NCBI RefSeq assembly: GCF_030758775.1
Contig: NZ_CP132384.1
Span: 1-64,000, forward strand
DNA length: 64,000 nt
Direction: 5' to 3'
DNA from: Bifidobacterium asteroides
Lineage (GTDB): Bacteria; Actinomycetota; Actinomycetes; Actinomycetales; Bifidobacteriaceae
Below are positions 44,518-60,978 of this stretch, one piece after another. The notes beneath the pieces were generated by a model that was given only the letters and a program-made list of their open reading frames with translations, did no database searches and had not been told where the DNA came from. The translations under genes and the position numbers were made by a program. Numbering within the stretch: position 1 is the stretch's first letter; each line of letters opens with the position of its first letter.

Positions 44518-46397
44518 ATGATCAGCAAGCGACTACTTCATCTACCGGGAGCCAGGATGGGCGCCAGCCTCCTGCTGGCCCTCCTGCAGACGATCGGCGC
44601 GTTGGCAGAGGTCCTCCTCCTGCCGGTGGCCATCGCGGCCGTGGGCCGTTCCCTTCGCCTGCCTGTCCCCCATGCCCTTGCCTGGGTGCCCGGTCGGCCC
44701 GGACCCTTGGCGGCGCTGATAGGCGGGCTGATCCTGGTTCGGCTCCTGGCCCAGGCGGTCGCCAAGTTCGTCAGCGCCCGGCTGGCTGATGGGATGGGCA
44801 AGGCGCTCTCCCAGGCCCTGTATCTATCCGTGTTCGACCCCAACAGGCAGGAGGACGACCTGGGCGTTCCGGCGCAGACCCTGGCCAGGCTTTCGACCGA
44901 GGGGGTCAAGTCGGTCGTCTCCTACTTCACGGCTTATATTCCGGCGCTGGTCCAGACCGCCCTGATGCTGGTCGTGACCCTGGCCGTCCTCCTGCCTGTC
45001 AGCCCGCTGGCTGCGGCAATCGTCGTGATCGGCATGGTGTCTCTGCCCCTGGCATCCAAGCCCACCATGGGCGAGAACATCAAGGTGCAGCTGGGCCAGT
45101 TGCGCAAGTATGACAAGGTCGGCGTCCACTTCGAGCATGCCCTGAGGGGGCTCAACACCTTGAAGATCTTCGGGGCAGACCAGCGGCAGGCCGACGACCT
45201 GGCCGAGGAGTCCGAAGGGTTCCGCCGGATAACGATGGGGGTTCTGGGCGGGCAGCTGCGCTCGCTGATCAAGGCCGACGTGGTCATTTACACCAGCCTC
45301 ATTCTGGCGGTCGTTGCCACCGTTCTGATCGGGCAGGGCGGGCCCGCTCGAGTGCTGTCCTGCCTGGTTGTTGCTTTGGCTGGGGTCCGGCTCTTTGCAC
45401 CTGAGCGGCAGTTGGTCTACATGATGCATTCCGGCATGGTCGCCATCAAGCAGGGCAAGGCCATCGACGATATTCTCCAAGCGCGGCAGGGGAGCAACGG
45501 GGAGTCGGCGGCTCCAGGGACGACTCCTGAGTCATGCAAGAGTACGGGTTCGGAGACGGCTCCGGAAGCGAGTCTCGAAACTTCTGAGAAAGCAGTTCGG
45601 GAGTCTGACTCGGAATCCGCTTCGAAGCAAGCAGATCAGGCGGATATGTCTGGCGATGATTCGCTAGGCATCAGCGCTCGCGATTTGACCTACACCTATC
45701 CTGACGGCTTCCAGGCCCTGACCGATCTGAACTTCGATCTGCCTGCCAAGGGACATGTGGGCTTGGTCGGCGCTTCGGGCTCCGGCAAGAGCACCTTGGC
45801 GGGCCTGCTGTCCGGCGCCTTCAGGGGTATGGCGGAGAGCTGACCATTGGCGGGCGCCAGATCAGCGACCTGTCACGCGAGGACTTGGTCGGCCTGCAGA
45901 CTGTGGTTCGGGGAACCGATCACCTCTTCACCGGAACCATCAGGTCGAATCTGGACCCGGCCGGACTGGGCTACTCGGATTGGGAGCTGCAGGATGCGCT
46001 GGACCAGGTCGGCCTGACCGGTCTTGTCCAAAGCAAGGGCGGACTGGACGCTCCTATCGACCCCGAGGGAGGCAACCTATCCGGAGGGCAGCGGCAGCGC
46101 CTGTCCATTGCCCGCGGGCTCCTGCGGCGTTCCCCCGTCTATATCTTCGACGAGGCCACCAGCGCCGTGGATCGCGAGCATGACGCTACACTGGCAGCCC
46201 TGATGGACGCGCTGGGCAAGGAGTCCATGGTCCTGACCATCACCCACCGCCTGGCTGGGGTCCGCAATGCCGATTCCATTCTCTTCTTGCAGGGGGGCCG
46301 TCTGGCGGAGTGCGGCGGTTTCCGTGAGCTGTTGGATGCCGGGGGCGGATTCGCGGCCCAGTGGAAGGAGCAGGCTCAGTATGAGGACGGGGAGTGA
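44518..46397 (+). pseudogene. CydD-like ABC exporter half, frameshifted
   Basis: Six membrane helices (about 1-310) and the start of an ATPase domain are encoded from ATG 44518. Walker A GASGSGKST is reached before a premature stop at 45841-45843. The rest of the ATPase (YGGELTIGG, LSGGQRQRLSIARGL, VYIFDEATSAVD, TITHRLAG) is in the next frame to 46397. Adding one G to the G4 run at 45824-45827 would restore a protein of about 626 residues. Residues about 325-380 are low complexity (Ser/Glu/Thr). The first half resembles CydD. It may be a true pseudogene, a slippage gene, or a base-calling error. Confidence 0.8.
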
Positions 46398-46401
46398 CGA
46401 C

Positions 46402-48129
46402 ATGCAGCAGACGACCGGCAATCTGACGATGATGCGCCGTATGGCCCGGCTGATGAAGCCTCTGGCCGGCACGGAGGGCAAGGCCATCCTCTGCGGCAGT
46501 CTGGGCCATCTCTTCGCAGTCTGGAGCATGATGGCAGCCGCAGCGGCCCTGATCGGCCTGGTCGCGGACTGGCCGCCGCTGAATGGCCAGTGGGTCGTCT
46601 GGGCCCTGGTGGCGGTTCTGACTGCTCTCAGCCGAGGGGCTATGGCCTATGGGGAGCAGTACTACAACCACGAGATGGCCTTCAGCATGCTCCGGGACAT
46701 CCGCACGACGGTCTTCGACAAGATGCGGTCCCTGGCCCCGGCCGGCCTGCGCGACCAGGCGCGCGGGGACATGGTGACGGTGATCACCAACGACATCGAG
46801 CTGCTCGAGATCTTCTACGCCCATACGCTTTCGCCCATTGCCATCGCCCTGGTGACCTCTCTGGCCAATTTGGCCCTGCTCACCTGGCTCTCACCCTGGA
46901 TGGGACTTGCCGCCCTGGTCTCCTACCTGATCGTCGGCCTGCTCATCCCCATCCTGAGCGCCAGGCCCACTTTCAAGGTAGCCATGCAGGAGCGAACAGC
47001 CCAGGCCAGCCTGCACTCCCTGCTTCTGGAGACCCTGCAAGGCCGCACCGAACTGGCTGGATTGGGGGCTCTTGGCAATACCCGCCATCGAGTGGGAGCC
47101 GCCACCGACCAGATGTTGGATGCCCGCGGGCGCACCTCTGGGCGGACCATCGCCAACGACATGGTCACCAATGTGGTCACTCTGATCTGCGCCGGAGCCT
47201 TCACACTGATGGCCTGCTGGCTTGGCTCTGAGGGGTTGATGGATCCTGCCCGGGGGATGATCGGACTGATCGGCTTCCTTTCCTCCTTCGCCCCCCTGAT
47301 ACCTGTGGCCCGGCTAGGCGCCGGCCTGCAGCCCACTCTGGCTGCTGCCAGGAGGGTTTTCGCGCTTTTGGACAAGGAGCCGCCTGTACGTGAGGTGGAA
47401 TCCGGTCACGGGAATCCTTTGGCGAAATTTACCGGAGAAGAGGCCAAGGCAGTTTCCTTCTCTTACTCTGGCAAGACTGACACGGATAAGAATGACTCAG
47501 GTGAACATGGCGGTCGAATTGCAGTTTTGCATGGTCTGAATCTGTCTATCAAGCCTGGCGAGCTGATTGGTATCCAAGGCGCCAACGGGGTCGGTAAATC
47601 TACTTTGATCGATCTGCTGATGCGGTTCCAGGAGCGTGGCGGCGGGGATCTGACCGTCTCCGGCCTACCTATCGAAACCATCCGCACCGTCGACCTGCGC
47701 GCCCAGCAGGCTCCGGTGAGCCAGGACACTTATATATTTAGCCTCACTCTGGCGGACAACATCGCCTTGGCCCGGCCAGATGCCAACAGGGCAGATGTTG
47801 AGCAGGCGGCCCATGATGCATGTCTGGATGATTTGATCGACCAGCTGCCCGATGGCTTGGATCATCTACTCGCCGACAACGGCTCCGACCTGTCCGAGGG
47901 GCAGCGGCAGAGGGTAGCATTGGCTCGCGCTTTCCTGAGCTCGGCGCCCTTCATACTCCTGGACGAGCCCACCAGCAATATGGATGCTCTCTTGGAAGGC
48001 CGTGTCCTGACCAGGTTGATCAAGCGCAAAGGCGACCGTACCTGTCTAATCGTCTCCCATCGCCCCTCGGTCCTAGCCAGGGTTGACCGTCTGCTGACGC
48101 TACAGGACGGCAGATTAATCTCTGCATGA
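46402..48129 (+). CDS. CydC-like ABC exporter half (fused permease-ATPase)
   Basis: The 575-residue protein has six helices (about 15-315) and an ATPase domain with Walker A GANGVGKST, signature LSEGQRQRVALARA, Walker B FILLDEPTSNMD and H-loop LIVSHRPS. GGGGAG and a four-base gap after the previous stop indicate coupling to the CydD-like gene, its presumed heterodimer partner. CydDC exporters move thiols needed for cytochrome bd; related pairs move other substrates, so the cargo is undecided. Confidence 0.88.
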   Translation: MQQTTGNLTMMRRMARLMKPLAGTEGKAILCGSLGHLFAVWSMMAAAAALIGLVADWPPLNGQWVVWALVAVLTALSRGAMAYGEQYYNHEMAFSMLRDIRTTVFDKMRSLAPAGLRDQARGDMVTVITNDIELLEIFYAHTLSPIAIALVTSLANLALLTWLSPWMGLAALVSYLIVGLLIPILSARPTFKVAMQERTAQASLHSLLLETLQGRTELAGLGALGNTRHRVGAATDQMLDARGRTSGRTIANDMVTNVVTLICAGAFTLMACWLGSEGLMDPARGMIGLIGFLSSFAPLIPVARLGAGLQPTLAAARRVFALLDKEPPVREVESGHGNPLAKFTGEEAKAVSFSYSGKTDTDKNDSGEHGGRIAVLHGLNLSIKPGELIGIQGANGVGKSTLIDLLMRFQERGGGDLTVSGLPIETIRTVDLRAQQAPVSQDTYIFSLTLADNIALARPDANRADVEQAAHDACLDDLIDQLPDGLDHLLADNGSDLSEGQRQRVALARAFLSSAPFILLDEPTSNMDALLEGRVLTRLIKRKGDRTCLIVSHRPSVLARVDRLLTLQDGRLISA

Positions 48130-48189
48130 TCCCCTTGTATGAGTGAAAGAATCAATAAGTGCTGGTGCAGATTTTTAGACATGCTTTAC

Positions 48190-48213
48190 GATTGCCGATG
48201 CAGATCGGCAATC
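48190..48213 (+). terminator. Hairpin after the ABC exporter pair
   Basis: GATTGCCGAT and ATCGGCAATC form a perfect ten-base-pair stem with loop GCAG, 60 bases past the exporter stop. No T-run. Confidence 0.6.
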
Positions 48214-48443
48214 ATAACAGTCCCTCAAAGGGCAGACGAATCAAGCCGCAGGCTTCCTCGTCGGGTTAGGGTTTGGGAAGTTAAGTCATTCGATACTGTG
48301 ACTGATTTTGCAATAAGGACAATATTGATTCATTGAAACCAAGGTTGACACTGTCTTCTGTTCTGGCTATAGGCATATCACAGCATCTACAAGCTTTGTG
48401 GCTCTAGGGCGTGGTTCTAAAACTCGCAGATACTGTTAACTGC

Positions 48444-49027
48444 TTAATGAATAAGCATAACATCCTTGGAATGCTGTTCGAAGGCCTTGTCTTGAGAAAA
48501 GACCCTAATGACATGAATGCCGCAGGTCAGTAAGACGTAGTAGATTCCGAGAAAAGACTGATGATAAAGTTCAACGCCATCCTGATTTTTCGTATTGAGG
48601 GATGTTAATAGTTGCCAGATACTTCATGTAGATGCTGTCCGTCATATCCAATATTGTGTGCAACCTTCACCCACTGCATAGTTGAGATTCTGCTCTTGGA
48701 CTGTAAATATGGGCCCTCTGGGTGCCTGTGCGCTTTTCAGTAAAACTCATCATAGTTGCCGATGAGGATCTCCTTGAGAAACGCTAGACCGTACGGTGGG
48801 TAGTAGCTACATCGTGAGCAAACTTGAGGCTGGGTAGACAAATGATCAAAGTAAGAACCTGTAACGAGCAACCGTAAGGGCTTGGGCGAGGCAGACGATG
48901 ATATCGCTAAATTGATTGGTTTTACAGTAGCGATGCATGCTGTGTCTACATAATAATGGAAGACGTGCTTTAGCGAACGGTCGTTAACAAGATGCCAGTT
49001 CTGGTTAGGGATGATAAATATTATCAT
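48444..49027 (-). pseudogene. Possible decayed gene
   Basis: A 96-codon frame (49027-48737) ends in TGA but continues in the same frame for 43 more codons of protein-like sequence (to 48605). A neighbouring frame then gives a protein-like stretch ending at 48444 (contains SFLGIYYVLLTCGIHVIRVF). The pattern fits an old gene broken by a nonsense change and a frameshift. I recognise no family, and random AT-rich DNA can look similar. Confidence 0.2.
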
Positions 49028-49809
49028 AAATAGCTAGGTACTTTGAACCCTGTGCAACGGGCTTTGAATGCGAAGATTCTCCCGTACGATCAACGGCCGC
49101 AAAAATTATGATGATTAGCTTGATTGCGTTAATGACTCTGTTGTATGCCCTCTTGTCAAGAACTTTTCGCAAGTCGTTGAAAAGATTGTCGTAATACAGC
49201 TGGCACTATGAATCAAACTTAATACCGACGCTCGCCTTAATTCGATGCCTCTACTTGAAATTATTACAATATATTTTGACTGTGTGCGATCAAAAATATT
49301 CAATAAATTAAAATTATGGCGAATCCGTGCGCTCTTGAAAAGACCTTCAAGAAACATCTAGAAGAGAATCGGTGATTGTTAAATCTGTATTGGAATCAAA
49401 CTGCGAAAGCCAGCAACATAATCAACGTTATATGTCAATAATGTCGGGATTTATATGATCAACAGAGTGATAAGGATAGGCGGAACTTTATGAACGTATA
49501 CTTTGAAGTGGCGAAGGGGTGGCCATACTATCGTGAGTTGAAAAGAAAGAAACTTATAGAATAAGTCAAAGTATGCAAGTATCCACTCGAAGCACAGACT
49601 GATCAGTTGGGGCTTGACACTATTGCGACTAAGAACATGAATAACATTTAGGGATAAGCAGATCAGAAGAAAAAATGCCGTACTTCCTAACCAATGACAA
49701 TGATGCGTGAACTATTAAGGCACTAAGCTTGGCCGCGGTATTGTGGTAATCTTTCTTAGATAAGACGTATTCTCTCATGCGCATAAGTAGATTAGGGGGC
49801 ACTATTATC

Positions 49810-51501
49810 ATGGATTTCGAACCGGCTGTACCATCAAAAATGCGTAGCGTCCATCATTATGCAGATTGGAGTTACAGAAAAAACTATAGTGTCCCTCCGC
49901 GTCCAGACTTGCACATACCAAACTGGCTTCAGGGACAAAGCCAGATAAAGGATCCGGAACGCTATCTTTTTGCCTTCAGGACTTTACTAGTGCCAGAGGC
50001 TATGTTTGGCATTCCATGTTATAACGTCGAGTTCGACGACACCGATGAAGGATTAGGCTATTCATATAGTTTAATAATTGATGGAATAAAACCGAATCGT
50101 GACGGTAGACCGGATATCCCTGCCCCCGATTCGTGTTCATGGAAAGAGCATGCACCTGATTACTTAATAGCGGCTTGGTTTTCTCACCTTCAACTAACTG
50201 CCGAACTTGTTGAGTCGTCAATGAGAGATTTGGCTAGGGGGCGGTTCGTCGTCTCCGCAGTTGAAGTCAGAGCTGCTCTGGAAGTATCTGCTCGTTTATT
50301 TTTTTATGCTAAGACAATTGAGGAACACGATAATCTGCAAGATAGCTCCGGATTGATTTATAAGCTCTTCACGGGTCGTGGGAAATCGCAAGATCAACAA
50401 AAAACGATTACAGGCAGAATTAATCGATTGGCGCAGATTGTTGCAGATACGAATAGTTGGCCCAGCTTACCTAATCTATATCAATCGCTATGTAGCCTAG
50501 CGCATCCAACTCGACATCTAGTGGATTTATATCTATCTAAAGTTTCGGGTGGTTATATTCTTAATGTTCCTCGGGAACCATACTGGACAGACGACCAATG
50601 GTGCAAAGGTGGTATAACCATCCTTACGGCAGCAATAGTCGCTACAGAAGGTTTCCGCTTGAGTTGGTATAAAGTCAGGAAGGCGTGGCGCACTCTTTTG
50701 TCTTCGAAGCAGGGCTCTTCTACCTGCGACCTTAGTATGCGTCGATTTTATCTAGAAGATCCGTTAGGAAGTTTTGGGCCGTACAATTATCAAACCCACC
50801 TGGGCGCGTGGACACTGTCTCTGCACCCTGTCCCGAGCTGGGACTGGTGGACGGGAAAGTGGACGAATCACCTTGCACAACAGCTCAAAGTGTTTGAAGA
50901 CGACTGCATTCCAACGAAATACTTCAATCATGATGGCGCTTCAGCAGTATATGGATGGACGTGGCTGAGAATCCACTGTCTGTTGGAACTGGAACTGTCT
51001 ATAACAGAACACCTAAATAGAGGTGAGGTGGACACATCTGCTGTATTGTCCCGATTTGCACTTGAACATGCTGAGTCACTATGTAATGCCATACAGTCTA
51101 AGAACAGCTCTGAATTGCTTTGTAGATTACAAAACATTAAACGAGATAAGCCCACAGGTTTAGTGCTTGCCCAGACTGGTCAGGATTTACCGCCAATATC
51201 CGGCATCCCCCGAGATCCAAACGAAGCGGCGATAGACATAGCAAACAAAGGTTTAAATCGCTTTGTACACTCAGATTGGGAACCGCGGAAGATATACTGG
51301 GAGTATTTTAAATATCCGCATGGTGACTGGTTGTTGGAAATTCCGGGAAGTCCTAAGCACAAAAGTGGGAAGTCGGACGACGAGAATTATGACTTGGATA
51401 ATCCATGGTCAGCATCCGTAGCGTTGCTATACGTTATAGAGAATGAATCGGCCGATGCAATAGCGAGAGCACGGCAAGTTTCAGATAGTGACTTTGAGTA
51501 A
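49810..51501 (+). CDS. Unrecognised protein in the defence island
   Basis: The 563-residue protein matches no family I can name. ATG 49810 is favoured because GGGGG (49795-49799) is ten bases upstream; an ATG at 49777 would add 11 residues. It has no signal peptide or membrane helices. A central helical region (about 125-280) carries A-V-E-V-R-A-A-L-E-V-S-A-R-L-F-F and later S-L-A-H-P-T-R-H, a spacing reminiscent of HEPN-like helical bundles, though no R-x4-6-H site is certain. The C-terminal half is Trp-rich. Codons are AT-rich, as in its neighbours. It stands alone with about 740 empty bases to the restriction enzyme. Confidence 0.8.
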   Translation: MDFEPAVPSKMRSVHHYADWSYRKNYSVPPRPDLHIPNWLQGQSQIKDPERYLFAFRTLLVPEAMFGIPCYNVEFDDTDEGLGYSYSLIIDGIKPNRDGRPDIPAPDSCSWKEHAPDYLIAAWFSHLQLTAELVESSMRDLARGRFVVSAVEVRAALEVSARLFFYAKTIEEHDNLQDSSGLIYKLFTGRGKSQDQQKTITGRINRLAQIVADTNSWPSLPNLYQSLCSLAHPTRHLVDLYLSKVSGGYILNVPREPYWTDDQWCKGGITILTAAIVATEGFRLSWYKVRKAWRTLLSSKQGSSTCDLSMRRFYLEDPLGSFGPYNYQTHLGAWTLSLHPVPSWDWWTGKWTNHLAQQLKVFEDDCIPTKYFNHDGASAVYGWTWLRIHCLLELELSITEHLNRGEVDTSAVLSRFALEHAESLCNAIQSKNSSELLCRLQNIKRDKPTGLVLAQTGQDLPPISGIPRDPNEAAIDIANKGLNRFVHSDWEPRKIYWEYFKYPHGDWLLEIPGSPKHKSGKSDDENYDLDNPWSASVALLYVIENESADAIARARQVSDSDFE

Positions 51502-52238
51502 TAGATTATATTCTCACTCAAAAAATGGGCACTTCGTTCGGCGTAGTCTTCTGCCAAACTATGGAGAGCATAAAAATCTGCTATTTTTGTCAATTATTTT
51601 TTAGTCTGTAGAGCTTGATCATCCTAACAGGAGGCAACTTTTTTGTTAGTGCAATACCTAATTTAGCTGTGCTGCATAATTGGTTTCTATCGAAACTGCG
51701 TCAGACTACCGAACGCTTCGAGTGCAATTCTTCGATGAACAGGTACACGAAATCGAACGTTGTAACATAACACACAACTAAATATAAACTATTAAATACA
51801 TACGATCTATCAATCGATGACCTGTAGTGGTTATTAAGCCGAGCAGGATCTTTGAAGTAGAAGATTCCTTCGCAAGCGATTACGTATCACACATCGTGGA
51901 GCGTTAAGTATTGATAATCGTATTTGCTTTCGATGGTTCTTCCTATATGCTGTAATTCTCAGGTGTATGCTCCACATCGGATGAAATTAGTTTATTCATT
52001 ATGTGTAGGTATTTTGGTCGATCGCATTCTTGTGCCCACGCGTTATAGCTATCGGAGTTGAATTCTCTCGCTGTCGTAAATTAATCGGCAGGATATATTA
52101 TAACAATTAAGACTAAGCATTTTTTATACATGGCAGGTTGTGTGAATGACAGTCCACTCGGATGACGCTGTTAATCACACAAACCTGCTAGTGATTTAAA
52201 ATTTGATATGTCGCAGTTGTTATAGATAATATACTGGT
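51502..52238. other. Intergenic region before the Type ISP gene
   Basis: 737 AT-rich bases with no supported gene. Near its end are an imperfect inverted repeat (GTGTGA...ACAG at 52140-52152 against CTGT...TCACAC at 52168-52180) and a promoter at 52203-52230. Confidence 0.5.
52203..52230 (+). promoter_or_regulatory. Promoter for a probably leaderless Type ISP transcript
   Basis: TTGATA (52203-52208) and GATAAT (52225-52230) are 16 bases apart. The gene's ATG begins nine bases after the -10 box, where transcription should start. No ribosome site precedes the ATG, so translation is likely leaderless. Confidence 0.55.
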
Positions 52239-55200
52239 ATGACAGTCTTTCAAGATGTTCTCGATATTATAGAGAAATCGCCGGCAGCCCGTGTAGAAGG
52301 CGGGGAGAGAATCCGTGGGACGGCTTTCGAATTGGCGACAAAATATTTTCTTACTCATGACGCTGCGTGGGCTCCAATATTTTGTGATGTCTGGATGTGG
52401 TCGGAGGAGGGTAATCCACTTCTAACCAAGGACGCGCTTGGGAAACCTCATAACTTGCCCCGGAATGACACCGGTATTGATTTAGTAGCGCGTAGTTTTA
52501 ATGGCTCATTGTGGGCGATTCAGTGTAAATATGTTGCGGACGACCATATCCTTAATCAGAACGATATATCTTCATTCTTCGTTACTGGGATCGCGAGAAA
52601 AGTCCAACGCGGAAACTTCATTATCGTACATACGGGAGCAGGTCTTACAGAAACTCTCTCTGCGGAGGCTAAAGAATTTGGCGCTACCATTATTGATTCA
52701 AGCGACTTAAGTGGCGATTTGGTCGATTGGTCAGAATTTCTTCCGTCGGCGAGTGTCCGCAAGTTTTCGCCGCGCCCTTATCAGCAAAAGGCGATAAACG
52801 ATTGTCTCCATGGGTTTGAAACACACGATCGGGGTAAACTAATCATGGCGTGCGGCACGGGTAAGACCTTGACTGCACTTCGTCTTGCCGAAGAGATGAA
52901 ACAACGACGCAATGATCAGTTTCCGAATTTGCGTGGCAAACCTTTCAGAGTGTTGTTCCTAGCCCCATCCATAGCTTTGGTGTCGCAGACTTTCAAGTAC
53001 TGGACTCACCAAGCGATGGATCGCATAGTCGGATACATCGTGTGTTCGGATGGAACAGTAAAAAAAAGAGAAGGCGAAGATACGGACGAATGGCTCCTTT
53101 CGATACTTGATGTGCCATTTCCGACTACAACTGATGCGTCAATTTTAAAACGCAATGTTGAGCTATCTAGTACGGATGATGTCCTTTCAGTAGTGTTCTC
53201 TACCTATCAATCAATACAAACCACTATAGATGCGCAGCGCATGGGCATGCCTGATTTCGACTTAGTGATTTGTGACGAGGCCCATCGCACGGCTGGTGCT
53301 GCCGACAACAAGCGCAAAGTTTCTCCGTTCGTTTTGGTGCATGATGCTAAGTTACTTAAGTCTAATAAAAGATTGTATATGACGGCTACTCCGAAAGTAT
53401 ACGCCGATGCTGCAAAAGATCAGGCTAGACGCGAGGACTATACCGCCTATTCGATGGATGACGAGAATGTATTCGGACCAGAGTTTCATCGACTTAAGTT
53501 CGGCTCCGCTGTAGCACAGGGAATTCTGACTGATTATCGCGTATTGGTGCTCGGCGTTGCTCAGGGTCAAGCTTCAAATCTCAAGAGTGAAATGACTAAT
53601 ACGCAGGCAATGCGCAAGGAATACGATAAGATAGAAGATTTACGTCGTAAATCGCGCCGGCCTAATCGTGATGAGTTGGCAGAAAGGCGCAGAGCCGAGA
53701 TAGCCAAGCAGGCACAGTCGTTTGCTGGGAAGATTATTGGTGCTTGGAATGGGTTGCTGACCCGAGGGGTGCATAACGGCGGCGTCCTGAAATCTGTGGA
53801 CATAAATACAGGGTTAGGTGAACAGGTACAATTCGCGGTGATGGGCAACCAACCTCAGCCGCAATCAGAGGGGAAAACTGGGACACAGGCGGTGCGACCG
53901 TTACGAAAGGCGGTTGCATTTACAAGGCGTATTGCCGATTCAAAGGCGCTCGCAGACGGTTTCAATGATGTAGTCTTCCGATATCTTGCTCAGCAGATGA
54001 AGAGCGGGAATGAAGTGGAAGGTCTCTTGGAAGCGAACGTCAAACACATCGACGGTAGTATGCCAGCTAAAAAGCGTAGCAAGCTACTTTCATGGTTGGA
54101 TGAACCTCCTCTTGAAGGTGAATGCCGTATCCTGAGCAACGCAAAATGTCTTACTGAGGGTGTTGATTTGCCACAGTTGGATGCAGTGATCTTCTTTCAG
54201 CCACGGGCTTCGCAGGTCGATATCGTTCAGGCTGTCGGTCGCGTGATGCGCAAGGCTGAGAATAAGGAGTATGGGTATATCATCTTGCCAGTTGTGGTTC
54301 CGGATGATTCTAATGCTAATGACGTGCTCGCCAGTTCTGATTTCGAGACAGTCTGGAAAATTTTGCAATCCCTTCGTTCCCATGACGAGCGTTTGGATGC
54401 GCGCATTAATGCGTTGAGTCTGCATCGTCAGGCTGAGCAGAATAAACGTCGTCGTAAGCCAAATAAATCGAATCGTGTTGGCCGGGGTGACTTTATAGAC
54501 CAGTACGGTAACGATGAGGAAGCGCTGAATGGAGATCAGGGATCTCTAACCGCTATGGTGCAAGGCGAGCTGGGATTCGACGAGCAGGTTTCGGAAAGTT
54601 TTCAAGCCAAATTGGTTCAGAAGTGCGGGGATACTGCTTACTGGGATGATTGGGCCGATTCTGTGGCAAAGATTGCGAAGACCACAGTGAAAGCCATTAA
54701 TGCTGCCATTGTCGATGATGCGCAGGTCGGGACAGCATTCAACATATTCCTTCAAGGACTGCGGGATACTTTGAATCCAGGCATCGACCGAGATGACGCG
54801 ATAGGCATGCTCGCTCAGCATATACTTACCGCGCCTATTTTCGACGCACTGTTTGTCCAGCAGAAGGATTCGCAGGGCCGGAGCTTCGTCCAAGCCAATC
54901 CCGTTTCACAGGCTCTCGAGCCCATTACCAAGCTGCTTGAACCGTTAATCAACAAGGCCGATCCACAACACGAGTTGTCGGAACTCTATGCCCAGGTGAG
55001 ACTTTCTGCTTCGGCTGTGCACAGTGATGAATCCGCTCGTCAGGCGCTGGTGAAGAATCTCTACGAGTCGTTCTTCCGCAACGCGTTCAAGGATGACTCC
55101 AAGAAGCTCGGTATCGTTTACACGCCCACGGAAATCGTAGACTACATTATTCACGCCGTGGACCGCCAGCTTAGTGAGCATTTCGGAAAGCATATAGGCG

Positions 55201-57590
55201 ATCGGGGCGTTACGATCCTTGACCCGTTTACAGGAACCGGCACTTTCATCGTTGAGCTGCTGCGTTCCGGACTCATTCCTGCTGAGAACTTGCGCTACAA
55301 GTATGAGCATGAGATCTATGCGAACGAGATTATGCTGCTCGCCTACTACATAGCGATGGTCAACATCGAATCCGCGTTCTACTCCGTACAGATGGAGCTA
55401 GCCAAGTCTGGGAAAGTTGGTGACAAAGGCAACTCGTTCTACGTCCCCTTCCCGGGCGGGGTACTTACTGACACTTTCCAGACTTCGGAAGATAACGACA
55501 CCATAGACCAGTCAGTGTTTATGGCGAACAGTGAACGTGTGCAGCGTGAGAATGAACAGCCCATCACTGTCATATTCGGTAATCCGCCATATTCTGCAGG
55601 CCAGAAGTCAGCGAATGAGAACAATGCCAACGATCACTATGAAACGCTTGACTCGCGCATAGAGGAAACCTATGTGGCTACTTCATCATCTTCGAACAAG
55701 CGTCAGATCTATGATTCATATATTCGTGCGTTCCGCTGGTCCTCTGACAGAATTGCAGGTGTTAATCGCGATGGCAAGGGCATTATAGGGTTTGTGAGCA
55801 ATGGTGGATGGCTTTACAGCATCGCTTTTAACGGATTCCGCAAGGCTCTATGTAACGAGTTCAGCGATATATACGTATTCAACCTTCGCGGAAATGCATT
55901 AGGCAAGGGAATTGAGAGGAAAAAAGAGTCAGGAAATGTGTTTGGAGGAGGCACTCGTACATCAATAGCCGTAACCCTGTTGATTCGTGATCAAGAAGCT
56001 GATCATCAAGGTATTGTGCACTATCGTGACATTGGTGATTATCTTTCACGTGACGAAAAACTTGCGACTATAGACGAATCTGCAGATGGGGAAGAATTTG
56101 AATGGCAGATATTAATTCCCGATGAGCATGGCGATTGGCTATCTCAAAGGGATGATTCCTTTGATAATTATGCTCCTCTCGCACTGGGCAAACGCAAACG
56201 GATACCAGGGATGTTTGCCACATATTCTCTGGGTATCAATACTAATCGTGATGCGTTCTGCTATGGATTTTCCTTTAATGAGGTACAGAATAATATTCAA
56301 CGTTTGTTGAAGACATATAATTCTGAGTTATCAAGATGGAAAGCAGATGGGAGAAAACAGCCAATCGAAGATTTTGTCGTGAGGGATGCTCATTTGATCA
56401 AGTGGAGCAGTTCTCTATATCAATTATTCGCGAGAGAAAAGCAACTACTGTATTCCGATGAGCATCTTGTCTACAGTCTCTACCGTCCATTTACGAAAAA
56501 ATGGTTGTATTACGATGGCTCTCTTATTCATAGAATATTTCGTAACTTGTCGCTGTTCCCCCCTGCTTTATCAACGCCTGAAACAACGTCGGCTACTGGT
56601 ATGCATATACAACGTGAGACAGCCCTCTCGCCTTTCGTTAATCGAGTGATAGATGTTTCAGGTGTTGGCAACACGGGTTTTTCGTGTTTAATCTCAGAAG
56701 AAACCGTCTGCCTCGATGCAGTGCAAAAAGGTCAGTGCTTCCCCTTGTATTGGTATGAGGCGATAGATGATTCCAGGAAGGTTCCAGAGGGTGAACTTGA
56801 TCTTGGACATGCATCCCTTCTTAAGCCTGGCGACCTTATCGTGAATGACAGTCAGGGCAAACGATATATCAGGCATGATGCCATCACGGATGACACGTTG
56901 CGCGTGTTCCGCGCTGCATATCCCGATAACCGTTCCCTGCATGCGAAAGATGTATCAGCGGCGAAAGAATGTATTTTCTACTATGCATATGGATTGCTGC
57001 ACAGTCCTGAGTATCGTGAGCGTTTCTCTGCGAATCTCCGCAAGGAATTGCCTCGGATCCCATTTGCTGCTGATTTCGACACGTATCAGCTCGCGGGCCG
57101 CCGCCTTGCGACATTGCATGTGGAGTATGAGAACGTTGAACGCTATGTGAGCACCGAGAATGGTCAGAACGGCCGCATAGTTGAGGATTGGTCTGAAGAT
57201 GCCGACCATTCTGATCCAGGAAGAGTGCAGAAGCTCCAATTCGGACGCACTACGAAATCTGAAGACAACCCTCAAGGCAAGGACAGGTCGACGATCATCA
57301 TTAACGATAAGGTATCCTTGCGGAACATTCCCGAGGAGGCGTATCGATACAAGGTATCAGGCCGGTCGGCTATTGAATGGGTCATGGATCAGTATCGAGT
57401 GAAAACCGATAGAGCCAGTGGGATTACTAATGATCCTAACGATTGGGTACGAGAGAGCGGCAATCCCAGATATATCATCGATTTGCTCGAATCAGTTGTC
57501 ACCGTGTCAATCGAGACGATGAAGATCGTTGACTCCTTGCCTCCGATCAACGCGCAGGATAGACCCTCATTCTGGCCCCTAGGGTGGTAA
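52239..57590 (+). CDS. Type ISP restriction-modification enzyme (LlaGI/LlaBIII-like)
   Basis: A single 1783-residue polypeptide with nuclease, translocase, methyltransferase and target recognition. An Mrr-like nuclease lies at the N-terminus (D81 then Q95-C-K97, a D-Xn-QxK site). The SF2 translocase has Walker A G206-TGK-T210, D346-EAH, M381-TATP and Q664-AVGRVMR. The gamma-class N6-adenine methyltransferase has D995-PFTGTGTF and N1115-PPY, and the target-recognition region follows (about 1200-1600). Such enzymes methylate one strand of an asymmetric site and cut after translocating. All motifs are intact. It is likely leaderless. The recognition region is AT-richer than the flanking coding parts. 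Confidence 0.95.
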   Translation: MTVFQDVLDIIEKSPAARVEGGERIRGTAFELATKYFLTHDAAWAPIFCDVWMWSEEGNPLLTKDALGKPHNLPRNDTGIDLVARSFNGSLWAIQCKYVADDHILNQNDISSFFVTGIARKVQRGNFIIVHTGAGLTETLSAEAKEFGATIIDSSDLSGDLVDWSEFLPSASVRKFSPRPYQQKAINDCLHGFETHDRGKLIMACGTGKTLTALRLAEEMKQRRNDQFPNLRGKPFRVLFLAPSIALVSQTFKYWTHQAMDRIVGYIVCSDGTVKKREGEDTDEWLLSILDVPFPTTTDASILKRNVELSSTDDVLSVVFSTYQSIQTTIDAQRMGMPDFDLVICDEAHRTAGAADNKRKVSPFVLVHDAKLLKSNKRLYMTATPKVYADAAKDQARREDYTAYSMDDENVFGPEFHRLKFGSAVAQGILTDYRVLVLGVAQGQASNLKSEMTNTQAMRKEYDKIEDLRRKSRRPNRDELAERRRAEIAKQAQSFAGKIIGAWNGLLTRGVHNGGVLKSVDINTGLGEQVQFAVMGNQPQPQSEGKTGTQAVRPLRKAVAFTRRIADSKALADGFNDVVFRYLAQQMKSGNEVEGLLEANVKHIDGSMPAKKRSKLLSWLDEPPLEGECRILSNAKCLTEGVDLPQLDAVIFFQPRASQVDIVQAVGRVMRKAENKEYGYIILPVVVPDDSNANDVLASSDFETVWKILQSLRSHDERLDARINALSLHRQAEQNKRRRKPNKSNRVGRGDFIDQYGNDEEALNGDQGSLTAMVQGELGFDEQVSESFQAKLVQKCGDTAYWDDWADSVAKIAKTTVKAINAAIVDDAQVGTAFNIFLQGLRDTLNPGIDRDDAIGMLAQHILTAPIFDALFVQQKDSQGRSFVQANPVSQALEPITKLLEPLINKADPQHELSELYAQVRLSASAVHSDESARQALVKNLYESFFRNAFKDDSKKLGIVYTPTEIVDYIIHAVDRQLSEHFGKHIGDRGVTILDPFTGTGTFIVELLRSGLIPAENLRYKYEHEIYANEIMLLAYYIAMVNIESAFYSVQMELAKSGKVGDKGNSFYVPFPGGVLTDTFQTSEDNDTIDQSVFMANSERVQRENEQPITVIFGNPPYSAGQKSANENNANDHYETLDSRIEETYVATSSSSNKRQIYDSYIRAFRWSSDRIAGVNRDGKGIIGFVSNGGWLYSIAFNGFRKALCNEFSDIYVFNLRGNALGKGIERKKESGNVFGGGTRTSIAVTLLIRDQEADHQGIVHYRDIGDYLSRDEKLATIDESADGEEFEWQILIPDEHGDWLSQRDDSFDNYAPLALGKRKRIPGMFATYSLGINTNRDAFCYGFSFNEVQNNIQRLLKTYNSELSRWKADGRKQPIEDFVVRDAHLIKWSSSLYQLFAREKQLLYSDEHLVYSLYRPFTKKWLYYDGSLIHRIFRNLSLFPPALSTPETTSATGMHIQRETALSPFVNRVIDVSGVGNTGFSCLISEETVCLDAVQKGQCFPLYWYEAIDDSRKVPEGELDLGHASLLKPGDLIVNDSQGKRYIRHDAITDDTLRVFRAAYPDNRSLHAKDVSAAKECIFYYAYGLLHSPEYRERFSANLRKELPRIPFAADFDTYQLAGRRLATLHVEYENVERYVSTENGQNGRIVEDWSEDADHSDPGRVQKLQFGRTTKSEDNPQGKDRSTIIINDKVSLRNIPEEAYRYKVSGRSAIEWVMDQYRVKTDRASGITNDPNDWVRESGNPRYIIDLLESVVTVSIETMKIVDSLPPINAQDRPSFWPLGW

Positions 57591-57595
57591 TAATA

Positions 57596-57609
57596 CTGTG
57601 ACGTCACAG
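57596..57609. repeat. 14-base perfect palindrome
   Basis: CTGTGACGTCACAG is fully self-complementary and begins six bases after the Type ISP stop. With the later stem 57688-57693/57711-57716 (GGGCAT/ATGCCC) it may be part of transcript ending. Confidence 0.5.
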
Positions 57610-57720
57610 CAACTCAATCGAACTGGTGCGGTGAAAGCGCATAAAAGGTGGCGGAAGTTCAAGGTGAATGCCGATTCGTGATTGGATGGGCATGGATATC
57701 ATAAATTCCAATGCCCGTCG

Positions 57721-57827
57721 CCCCCCCCCCCCCCGTAAACTAAAATAGGCGTATCAAGTTTAGATAGCCGTTGTTAACCGGTTGTGTCGAGGTAAGCTGC
57801 GTGTCTATGATTTTTTTGGGGGGGGGG
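57721..57827. repeat. C14 and G10 homopolymer tracts between convergent defence genes
   Basis: Fourteen C (57721-57734) and, 83 bases on, ten G (57818-57827) lie between the Type ISP stop (57590) and the AbiH stop (57853). They are complementary and could pair in RNA of either strand. Such lengths are prone to slippage. No convincing gene spans them. Confidence 0.8.
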
Positions 57828-57852
57828 CAAATAATCTTTTCGGGCTTAACGA

Positions 57853-58818
57853 TTACAAGCTGTCGAAGTACTGCTTAGACCTTATTATTGTTAACCCCTT
57901 CAAGGGTATGCCATTTGCTTTTGCCCTTGAGCACATTTCGCTTTTCCGGTTGTTGTCTTCTTTTCGGCATTTATCGCCGTGATAAGTAACAGTCCATTGC
58001 GCTTGTGGATACGCCAATGCCAGCTTGTTGATATAGGGTTTGTCGACGTCTCCTAGTGAGTGGCCGATAACGATAATTTCCTTCACTTGCTTTCCGCTTA
58101 TCCGCTTTAGAAAGTCGTCGAGATTATCGAAACCTGAATCAATATTTTTCTTAGTAACTTCAATAAGTCTCAGACCCACATCTTCAGCAATGTCGCGTAA
58201 TTCAGCTTCCACTTCCCGCTGAGAGATATCGGGCTGATTAGGATACGGATCATATTCGCTGCCTTCTATCTGTGAAAGGCCTCTCACTTCGACATCAGAA
58301 CCATGGCCCACAATGATTTTAGCCGATTTGACAGAACCATGGATATGGCAAATCTGATTTTTTTTAACCCCATATACTTCTTCAAGCAGCATTGTATAGT
58401 TAAAGGTAATAAATAGATCACTTGGCAAGGGCCACTTCGGAATAGGACGAACTCCTTCAAGACTAACGCTGCTGATCCACTCTTTCACATTTTCTGCAAT
58501 TTGGTCATACACATCAGGACCTATATCTAGGCTACTTGATAAATTTAGATTAAAGGGTGAGACGTTGCCTCCTGAGTCCGTATCCATTGTGGATATTGTT
58601 TGTTCGTAGTTTTCCTTAAGCTGTTCGCATATTTCTTCTACGTTAGGTTTGCCGAGATTGCTTTCTAAATCCGCCCACGGGTGTTCAGGATCGTCCGGAT
58701 CTTCAAAAATATTTGAGTTCCATAACGCCCCAGCAGAGGAATAGATGAAATCCTCCCACGAGGTTGGCAACTTGTGGATAAGATCAAAACCATTACCGAT
58801 AACATAAAGACGTACCAT
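57853..58818 (-). CDS. AbiH-family abortive-infection protein
   Basis: The 321-residue protein starts with the family hallmark V-I-G-N-G-F-D-L-x-H-x-L-P-T-x-W-x-D-F and ends with I-G-H-S-L-G-D-V-D near residue 270, as in lactococcal AbiH. These proteins stop phage growth by host shutdown; the biochemical activity is not settled. AAGGAG precedes ATG 58818. It converges on the Type ISP gene, so the two form a defence pair. A 12-base palindrome overlies its promoter. Codon use is AT-rich. Confidence 0.9.
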   Translation of the reverse strand: MVRLYVIGNGFDLIHKLPTSWEDFIYSSAGALWNSNIFEDPDDPEHPWADLESNLGKPNVEEICEQLKENYEQTISTMDTDSGGNVSPFNLNLSSSLDIGPDVYDQIAENVKEWISSVSLEGVRPIPKWPLPSDLFITFNYTMLLEEVYGVKKNQICHIHGSVKSAKIIVGHGSDVEVRGLSQIEGSEYDPYPNQPDISQREVEAELRDIAEDVGLRLIEVTKKNIDSGFDNLDDFLKRISGKQVKEIIVIGHSLGDVDKPYINKLALAYPQAQWTVTYHGDKCRKEDNNRKSEMCSRAKANGIPLKGLTIIRSKQYFDSL

Positions 58819-58843
58819 TACCTTCTCCTTATTATCAGTGTAT

Positions 58844-58855
58844 ATAGTGCACTAT
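58844..58855. promoter_or_regulatory. Palindrome at the AbiH promoter
   Basis: ATAGTGCACTAT is perfectly symmetric and lies 26 bases upstream of the AbiH start, between likely promoter elements. It may bind a repressor or AbiH itself. Confidence 0.4.
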
Positions 58856-59583
58856 TAAATTATAGAGAAAAAGACGGCAGTAAGGTTGAAGCTAACTAAC
58901 ATTGCAGTTGTTCATTCATACCCAACTTACTTTCTAATCAGTCCCAAAAACTACTAGAACCTGAGGAAACCACTAAGAGTCGTTAACGATAGACAGCTGA
59001 TACTAACTAATCAAAATAGCCAAGTCCAAAACAGAAGTCTTACGACACACTGGTTTACTGATCTGGGATTCTTGAAAGGATAATGGCTGATCATTTCATC
59101 GCATAATCCAATACTAAGTTCGATAAAAATAGATCTAAATAATAATTTCTTAATATTACTAATATGTTATGGATGATAGCTTTTGGAGATCTTGAGACCG
59201 ATGAAGCTATAGTGCAAGACTTTTTGAATCGAATAACACAGGTACGGTAGATTGCTGGTAAAATATATAAGCTAGATGCCTTCTCAAGAGTTACGGACGC
59301 TTGCGTTGAGCGATCTAAAATTACGGAGAGATTGACTGCTCGGCGGCGATAGTTGTTTTGTCTTATACTAATTCTGAAATAGAGTGATTTTATCCTTGCT
59401 CGAGGGTATCTAAAGAAGGCATGATCCCGAATACTATCAAGGCTTATTTTAGTTTATTAGGAATTGGAAAATTATATGATAAAGGATATCGACGCTTTAA
59501 AAGGGCATGCTTAAGAAGTACTCAACAATTAGCGGCCCATATATTTTTTTGCCGATAAACTCAATTATTAAGGAGGAAGTAAT

Positions 59584-59637
59584 ATGAGTACTCGTTTCGG
59601 CGTTGTGGGTATGTTGTTGAATATGCGGTCGTGCTAA
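59584..59637 (+). CDS. Possible 17-residue peptide
   Basis: AAGGAGG at 59570-59576 is seven bases before an ATG that opens MSTRFGVVGMLLNMRSC and a stop. The ribosome site is among the best in the island, but nothing resembling a known leader peptide, toxin or pheromone is visible. It may be chance. Confidence 0.25.
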   Translation: MSTRFGVVGMLLNMRSC

Positions 59638-60754
59638 CAGAACTATAGTTGAAGCAAAATAATCTGAGATAAGGAAAATTGGCAACTGATGAAGCAAGCG
59701 TCTCTGGAAAGAGGGAGGCCGTCACAGTCGGAGCGAATTGTAGAAATATTAAATTCTTGGAAATGATAATCTGGTAAGCCCATTCTCTGATCGTCTAAGT
59801 CTGTTACGTGTGTAAATGAAGTGGTTAAAAATATTGGCTCCACTTTCATTATGCATAGTTTAACCTGCTAAGTCTAGTGTCTGGTGTCTTATACAACAAT
59901 TCTCTAATATCTGTGTGACACTGCTGCGTGTGTCCTGGCTGGTATTTGGGTGCCGGAAGATGAAAGCAATGAATCTGGTGACGTCCTCAGTTAAGTTTCA
60001 TTAGTTGATAGACGTCGCACTTGGAAATGCAGTGCAAGTTTATCTATACGTGAAGTTTTGTAGTTGGGCGCATGGATAAGCTACCTACTTTGGCATGCAA
60101 CAATATAGGCACACGCGATGTTACTCGTGATGGAGACGATGAATGCCTACTGTGAATACAGTTGTCAATTATTATGTGTTAATTGTTATGAGAACAGTGT
60201 GGATATTGAAGGAGTAGTGTGCTTCCCAACGTTTCAGTCGCGGTCTTGATCTAGTACTTTGAAGCTTTGGCAGTAGAGCCTTATATAATACAGGTTGTAA
60301 AGTGACATGCTTTGATTCACGTCAGTGGCATCGGCAAAGAAAAAAATCAAAGTTGTTGCTATTCTCAGTGTATACATATTTCCCTCTTAGACCAATTGGT
60401 GTGAGAAGTGCTCTCCCATTTTCGCTCGAGTGCGATAGAACCTCACAAAATCAAGTAGTAGTTCCAGAAAAGTCCTGATGCGTACAGGCTGTCCTCTTCC
60501 ACGGTACAAGCTGCTCTCACTTTTCTAGCCCGGCGCACGTTAATGGGCAAGAGTGTATTTGCACCTAGTCATGTCCTCGTACTCTGTCTAGAGCTGACTT
60601 GAAGTTGCCGGACCTACCTTCATGACATTAAATGTTCATGGATATTCGGGGGATGCAACTTCTCACAGCACTTGATTATTAGGTTTCGTGAAGAATGAGG
60701 TATGGGTAGGGATAAAGAATGACTCCGAAACACTACAGGCAAAGAGTTTGTAGC

Positions 60755-60782
60755 AAAAAAGAAACTGCCTAGGACTTTGCAG
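60755..60782 (-). terminator. Terminator of the tRNA-Ala transcript
   Basis: On the minus strand a short CTGC/GCAG stem (60765-60768 and 60779-60782) is followed by TTTC and T6 (60755-60760), just past the tRNA 3' end. Confidence 0.5.
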
Positions 60783-60794
60783 AGAACCTACCTG

Positions 60795-60867
60795 TGGAGC
60801 TAGCCGGATTCGAACCGGCGACCCTCTGCTTGCAAAGCAGATGCGCTACCAGCTGCGCCATAGCCCC
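60795..60867 (-). tRNA. tRNA-Ala(TGC)
   Basis: The minus strand folds as a cloverleaf starting GGGGCTATGGCGCAGC, anticodon loop TTTGCAA (anticodon TGC) and T-arm GGTTCGAATCC. CCA is not encoded. It borders the accessory island. Confidence 0.95.
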
Positions 60868-60904
60868 GTGAATGTGAAAAGAACTTCAACCGCGCAAGAA
60901 TGCG

Positions 60905-60978
60905 TGGGCCTGGGAGGACTTGAACCTCCGACCTCATCCTTATCAGGGATGCGCTCTAACCAGCTGAGCTACAGGCCC
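60905..60978 (-). tRNA. tRNA-Ile(GAT)
   Basis: The minus strand starts GGGCCTGTAGCTCAGC, with anticodon loop CTGATAA (GAT) and T-arm GGTTCAAGTCC. It lies 37 bases upstream of tRNA-Ala and is probably co-transcribed with it. Confidence 0.95.

Follow-up and report, generated by a model that had tools for sequence, protein, structure and literature searches.

Beside a Type ISP restriction-modification enzyme and an AbiH family protein in Bifidobacterium asteroides lies a gene for a 563-residue orphan protein, here called P0001. Is it a phage-defence protein, a part of the neighbouring restriction system, or a passenger with an unrelated function? We addressed this within a window of 64,000 nucleotides (the whole stretch of DNA analysed) and at the corresponding site in sister genomes.

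A genuine gene in an AT-rich island

The P0001 frame is open from 49777 to 51501 on the forward strand (574 codons counting from the first ATG) and encodes 563 residues when read from the ATG at 49810 (49810-51501, +). The ATG at 49810 has an AGGGGG stretch in front of it (Table 1), so this start, the one given in an earlier sequence-only reading of the DNA, is preferred over 49777. In 60 Markov sequences generated with the dinucleotide make-up of the island, stop-free stretches reached at most 223 codons, compared with 563 in P0001. Codon usage, scored with a model trained on the adjoining ISP and AbiH genes, gave +0.055 bits per codon in the P0001 frame, whereas the remaining five frames scored between -0.27 and -0.57, and promoter and terminator scans around the gene stayed near chance level. 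On the strength of the open frame, the frame-specific codon usage and the AGGGGG stretch, P0001 is a genuine gene, as the earlier reading had assumed. The alternative of a decayed or spurious open frame, to which the absence of relatives from every search made would point, is highly improbable: 563 sense codons stand against a random maximum of less than half that length, codon usage is specific to the frame, a ribosome-binding-site-like stretch is in place, and one domain pattern is matched at two separate places inside the protein.

Between 48 and 61 kb, most 2-kb steps have a GC content of 40-50%, with 43% around P0001, and from 33 to 48 kb the content is 60-66%; the P0001 gene itself has 45% GC, and the ABC-transporter gene bordering the island on the left has 62%. 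This profile and the Pfam matches of both neighbours bear out the earlier statement that the gene shares an AT-rich island with a Type ISP enzyme and AbiH.

Table 1. Features of the P0001 locus and cargo at the same site in sister genomes (handles beginning with G)
Feature	Position	Strand	Remarks
ABC transporter gene, left hotspot border	46267..48129	+	name read from sequence; conserved in 12/12 up to 48112-48129
Variable cargo hotspot	48130..60786	.	borders align in 12/12 sister loci, contents differ; low GC
Shine-Dalgarno-like AGGGGG	49794-49799	+	10 nt upstream of the P0001 ATG at 49810
P0001, 563-aa orphan protein	49810..51501	+	coding frame; no family, no relative found
Half A, aa 101-305, DUF5677-like helical domain (putative)	50110..50724	+	R154/E158, Y224/H232, P257
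Half B, aa 371-563, second, more diverged copy (putative)	50920..51498	+	R415/E419, H487, P515; N479 for the family's Y
Type ISP restriction-modification enzyme, 1783 aa	52239..57590	+	Type_ISP_C 4e-89, ISP_coupler 4e-35, Mrr_cat_2 5e-18
AbiH family protein, 321 aa	57853..58818	-	PF14253 2.5e-45
tRNA-Ala(TGC) and tRNA-Ile(GAT), right hotspot border	60794..60978	-	
P0002, 614 aa, G019	L019:3938-5782	-	no family found
G003 hotspot			PrsW-type protease and sub-threshold SLATT_5 match; no called defence gene
G004 hotspot			Type ISP enzyme
G007 hotspot			Type III RM
G008 hotspot			AbiD/Abi_2
G009 hotspot			ThsB-type TIR proteins (Thoeris-type)
G010 hotspot			Type I RM, R subunit
G011 hotspot			near-copies of G025's YheO-regulator genes; identified by identity to G025
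G012 hotspot			PD-Lambda-5 A and B
G019 hotspot			Type ISP and AbiH
G020 hotspot			Type I RM; S (specificity) subunit scanned; R subunit 97% identical to G010's
G022 hotspot			Type ISP enzyme, called by its 97% identity to the G004 protein, which was scanned
G025 hotspot			AbiD/Abi_2, plus YheO-type regulator with linked genes

A hotspot with fixed borders and exchanged cargo

Sister loci were sought in 26 other genomes of the genus via the gene just right of the island, and the 12 of the 26 with near-full-length matches were examined, leaving out 13 weak matches and one genome with none. Homology on the left stops at 48112-48129 in all 12 loci. In 11 of them the right-hand homology starts again at the tRNA-Ala/Ile pair (60785-60794); in G019 it already does so at 52209. 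Between these borders, cargo is swapped between sister species and consists mostly of defence genes: a recognisable defence gene was found at the site in 10 of the 12 loci, a count for which part of the cargo frames was scanned. The earlier description of the locus as a defence-gene neighbourhood therefore extends to the same site in sister genomes. A YheO-type regulator with linked genes is also among the cargo, in G025, G011 and G007. Since most cargos hold defence genes and some hold YheO- or PrsW-type genes, the site is a defence hotspot, and not exclusively so.

P0001 is separate from the neighbouring restriction module

Placed directly upstream of the ISP gene and on the same strand, P0001 could serve the Type ISP system as an accessory, for instance as a regulator or a helper protein produced from one and the same module. 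However, 737 bp separate the two genes, and the comparison with G019 argues further against it. The match to the G019 ISP homologue runs from 52209 rightwards with 81% DNA identity up to 56272, and the AbiH homologue follows in the same place and order with 91% protein identity. The homology break in the window falls at 52209, with the ISP gene starting 30 bp further on, and in P0001's place G019 carries the 614-residue P0002 and a 209-residue protein on the opposite strand. As the same ISP and AbiH genes occur there with other genes in P0001's place, P0001 forms a separate module, independent of the ISP module. Two further genomes, G004 and G022, have an ISP enzyme and are without any P0001 relative. 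The accessory role is accordingly disfavoured, and we regard it as improbable.

P0002 resembles P0001 in length and module position and likewise has no PADLOC or Pfam family, but it lies on the opposite strand and similarity between the two is undetectable (best pairwise E 3.7). Its stretch GVDI...YQVKRY, read by eye, is one that we take to recall PD-(D/E)XK nucleases, and for this reason P0002 is possibly an undescribed restriction-type enzyme.

Within the ISP gene, DNA homology to the G019 enzyme is lost for about 360 bp (56272-56630), with both flanks aligning. The gap corresponds to the C-terminal specificity region, about residues 1345-1463, and looks like a target-recognition swap.

No family and no relative in the searches made

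Whole P0001 returned no match against Pfam, PADLOC and NCBIfam at E<=1, nor against PHROGs and PDB sequences at E<=10, in keeping with the earlier description of a protein of no recognised family. The piece covering half A (Table 1) matched no PADLOC family at E<=0.01, and half A alone gave one sub-threshold Pfam row, DUF7626 (E 0.19, 11.9 bits, cut-off 27).

Relatives were sought in overlapping genome samples of the genus, family, order, class and phylum. At E<=0.001, P0001 was found only in its own genome, both in the genus (1/27) and among the sampled genomes of the class (1/246). At E<=0.01, 2 of 396 genomes of the order (its own and one weak row) and 3 of 396 of the phylum (its own and two weak rows) were returned, all weak rows having E 0.005-0.008; in the family, at E<=0.1, there were 11 of 189 (its own and ten rows with E 0.02-0.10). 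Plasmids and phages gave no match at E<=0.01. Scans of viral_contigs, with whole P0001 and two fragments, and of genome_contigs (GTDB contigs) were likewise empty, contig scans that require exact 8-residue peptides and detect close relatives only. P0001 is thus without relatives within the searches made and has been seen so far in one genome; it was probably gained recently.

Of the weak matches, those opened at their loci (L002, L003, L004 and L042) fall in unrelated genes or wrong frames, and all six of L035, L037-L040 and L043 have internal stops within the match. Those in L036, L041 and L044 were judged from alignments to be scraps of 42-104 residues, their local E values of 4e-5 to 2e-4 having arisen when each was aligned to one 3-kb stretch alone and no composition correction was applied.

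Two DUF5677-like halves

Read by eye, both halves of P0001 show R..LE in a helix that follows an RG turn and, further on, L(S/C/N)x(L/F)(A/V)H, a shared pattern that we took to be reminiscent of DUF5677 (PF18928). A two-block test was trained on 31 DUF5677 proteins from P0001's phylum, Actinomycetota (one of them, L071, below Pfam's cut-off), with P0001 excluded; the blocks were helix 2 and Y..LS..H. The best placements of block 1 in P0001 were at residues 403 and 142 (5.3 and 4.2 bits; next -6.2) and those of block 2 at residues 215 and 470 (4.3 and 2.0 bits; next -4.9), leaving a gap to the next-best placement of at least 10 bits for the first block and about 7 bits for the second. The blocks pair in family order and at similar spacing in each half (142 then 215; 403 then 470).

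The resulting figures are optimistic, since the family and the block borders were chosen after the motif had been noticed: of 505 background pieces, none matched the score of half A (8.5 bits) and 1 that of half B (7.3 bits); in a larger background of 1057 pieces the counts were 2 and 3, among 1000 shuffles they were 1 and 2, and neither score was reached by any of 1057 reversed pieces. This background includes non-gene frames, and its best-scoring piece (L032) looks like a true distant relative. A regular-expression motif test, designed after P0001 had been seen, was left out of the evidence.

Among the DUF5677 members, the helix-2 R is present in 31 of 31 and E at +4 in 28 of 31, and Y...H at +8 in at least 90% of 22. 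Half A has R, E, Y and H, and half B has R, E and H. When the halves, cut by hand, were aligned with eight DUF5677 proteins using MAFFT, R, E and H were invariant in 10 of 10 rows, and P joined them as invariant in an alignment with five DUF5677 proteins taken from named records. The two alignments are not independent, because L072-L076 are the same proteins as L052, L050, L051, L046 and L048. P0001 therefore resembles DUF5677 in its helix-2 block, where E follows R at +4, in the Y..LS..H block that follows it in the same order, in the Y-to-H spacing of 8 and in the P after a strand-like stretch; it differs in carrying two copies in a 563-residue chain, compared with one copy in each of the five DUF5677 frames above 380 residues that were checked. 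These likenesses support, if weakly, a reading of P0001 as an N-terminal stretch of about 100 residues followed by two diverged, tandem DUF5677-like helical domains.

Other comparisons set bounds on this link. The Pfam DUF5677 model (cut-off 27.1 bits) matched neither whole P0001 (E<=1) nor its halves (E<=10), and a PF18928 search of G000 found nothing. A full-length HMM of the 31 members scored half A at -0.5 and half B at -1.7, values equalled by 23 and 83 of 505 background pieces, and a first HMM of 15 members gave 4.0 bits for A and -1.9 for B. With hhalign, a four-sequence DUF5677 profile aligned to A at E 0.087, compared with 0.098 for the best of eight shuffles, and to B at E 0.26, within the eight shuffles. 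In the two-block test, 30 of 31 left-out members scored above both halves. Given a two-block signal on which the Pfam and full-length models are silent, we name P0001 DUF5677-like and not a DUF5677 member.

Direct comparison of the halves gave a score reached by 41-50 of 300 shuffles; after trimming, it was reached by 66 of 500 at default gap cost, where the alignment is not significant, and by 6 and 5 of 500 when gaps were made cheaper. Aligned pairwise with five frames from DUF5677 loci, the best scores of A and of B were each reached by 9 of 300 shuffles and the rest by at least 31 of 300. A profile of both halves with DUF5677 matched, besides P0001, one seryl-tRNA-synthetase-like frame in the genus (E 0.018) and nothing further in the family at E<=0.01. 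Two DUF5677 alignments scanned against viral_contigs gave no confirmed relative.

DUF6988 (PF22491) overlaps DUF5677, 2 of the 22 DUF5677 proteins scanned matching it (best E 7e-4), so that the two may share one loose group; DUF6988 matched neither whole P0001 nor its halves. PADLOC, applied to 22 of the 31 members, gave one match, PDC-S52 (E 1e-4). The best match of the DUF5677 profile among PDB sequences, a tyrosyl-tRNA synthetase at E 0.037, was taken as chance. At L032:1249-2853 (-), a frame that overlaps a DUF5677 gene has the score of another DUF5677-like protein (LSSGFAHGRPWAYL), which suggests either that this locus holds a pair of DUF5677-like genes or that the overlap produced an artefact.

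HEPN membership is not supported

The helical region of P0001 had earlier been likened to HEPN bundles, and members of that superfamily (AbiV, AbiD/AbiF, AbiU2 and others) are, like P0001, helical and often found in defence loci. If P0001 were a canonical HEPN ribonuclease toxin, an Rx4-6H bundle would cut RNA on infection. A single-sequence AlphaFold2 model of P0001 is mostly helical, with two similar helix runs (111-297 and 376-554); at pLDDT 33 and pTM 0.24 it is uninformative for fold. For a DUF5677 protein the model had a pLDDT of 47, and comparison of this model with VIA-align returned mixed helical folds (top Z 7.1), among them Csm6 6tug (Z 5.7, 111 residues, rmsd 3.9), which is tied with unrelated helical folds. 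Csm6 contains a HEPN domain according to a survey of the superfamily (PMC3710099).

Half B also offers an RX4H, R415-FALE-H420, as would be expected of a HEPN protein. In the survey's description, however, the Rx4-6H motif stands at the end of helix 3 and the residue after R is usually polar (N, D or H), although families such as AbiV are mentioned with alternative histidines, lacking the canonical H (PMC3710099). The half B motif lies at the helix-2 R and has F, which is not polar, after it; the position of H420 is V in half A and H in just 4 of 31 DUF5677 members. Half A has no Rx4-6H. HEPN families of Pfam matched neither whole P0001 nor its halves, and Foldseek with the DUF5677 model found no match at E<=0.001. 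With a profile match lacking and the catalytic motif absent from one half and out of place in the other, the likeness drawn earlier is not established: HEPN membership of P0001 is not supported by its sequence, though a looser kinship is possible, and we give little credence to a canonical HEPN toxin.

A possible role in phage defence

Its position at a site where antiphage genes are swapped, together with the apparent two-copy helical domain, makes P0001 a good candidate phage-defence protein. As the most likely explanation, held tentatively and at somewhat short of an even chance, we propose that P0001 is one hotspot module of tandem DUF5677-like halves providing a single-gene, abortive-infection-type phage defence. 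In such a mechanism P0001 would act alone as the effector. Halves A and B would pack as an internal dyad, or pseudo-dimer, in which R and E of helix 2 and H of the later helix from both halves might line a shared polar site. This site could bind or cut nucleic acid or a nucleotide, and the protein would be triggered once phage infection disturbs the cell. The defence role, the dyad, catalysis and the trigger are all steps that we infer.

The main rival is that P0001 is a passenger, a real gene of unrelated function that came by chance into a permissive insertion hotspot. Cargo of the YheO type in three sister hotspots is consistent with this, as is the absence of a PADLOC match to P0001. The surroundings of DUF5677 proteins point the same way: at five named loci (three of which are one syntenic locus), the neighbouring frames read by eye included no recognised defence gene and were lar-type, pheT/selB-type or other housekeeping-looking genes. 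A defence role is therefore not transferable from DUF5677 to P0001, and these neighbours of distant relatives weaken the defence reading a little. Against the passenger explanation stand the ten sister cargos, out of 12, that hold a defence gene and the identity of P0001's immediate neighbours, ISP and AbiH; we consider it quite possible, if doubtful.

A more specific form of the defence proposal, in which a new antiphage family, acting by a single gene, has P0001 as the first member to be seen and kills or arrests the infected cell through a two-fold active site formed within one chain by a tandem DUF5677-like dyad, appears unlikely. If it were true, it would provide a function for DUF5677, which Pfam lists as of unknown function. 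Should P0001 protect against phage by whatever means, it would be a defence protein invisible to all four profile libraries used and would give a functional hint for the DUF5677/DUF6988 group. From sequence, P0001 is a real orphan gene in a real defence hotspot, and a new architecture is plausible for it.

Further cargo of the hotspot

A compact, repeatedly swapped hotspot with fixed borders yields a list of candidate cargo, comprising P0001, P0002 of G019 and a PrsW-type pair in G003. The last (L020:2722-4943, +) consists of a 245-residue protein with the sub-threshold SLATT_5 match and a 482-residue PrsW-type intramembrane protease, which have similar N-termini and are possibly a protease-effector pair. 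At L026:11773-14330 (+), two TIR-type ThsB-like proteins and a 256-residue protein with no PADLOC match are encoded consecutively as a Thoeris-like set, of which the 256-residue protein may be the effector. The YheO-like cargo of L021, L025 and L030 comprises a PAS/HTH regulator (scanned in L025 only) and two larger genes, apparently metabolic, and is 95-98% identical between L025 and L030. Three sister hotspots begin on the left with almost the same arginine/histidine-rich frame (L019:2239-2730, L020:5253-6035 and L022:13358-13849), probably a decayed gene read in the wrong frame.
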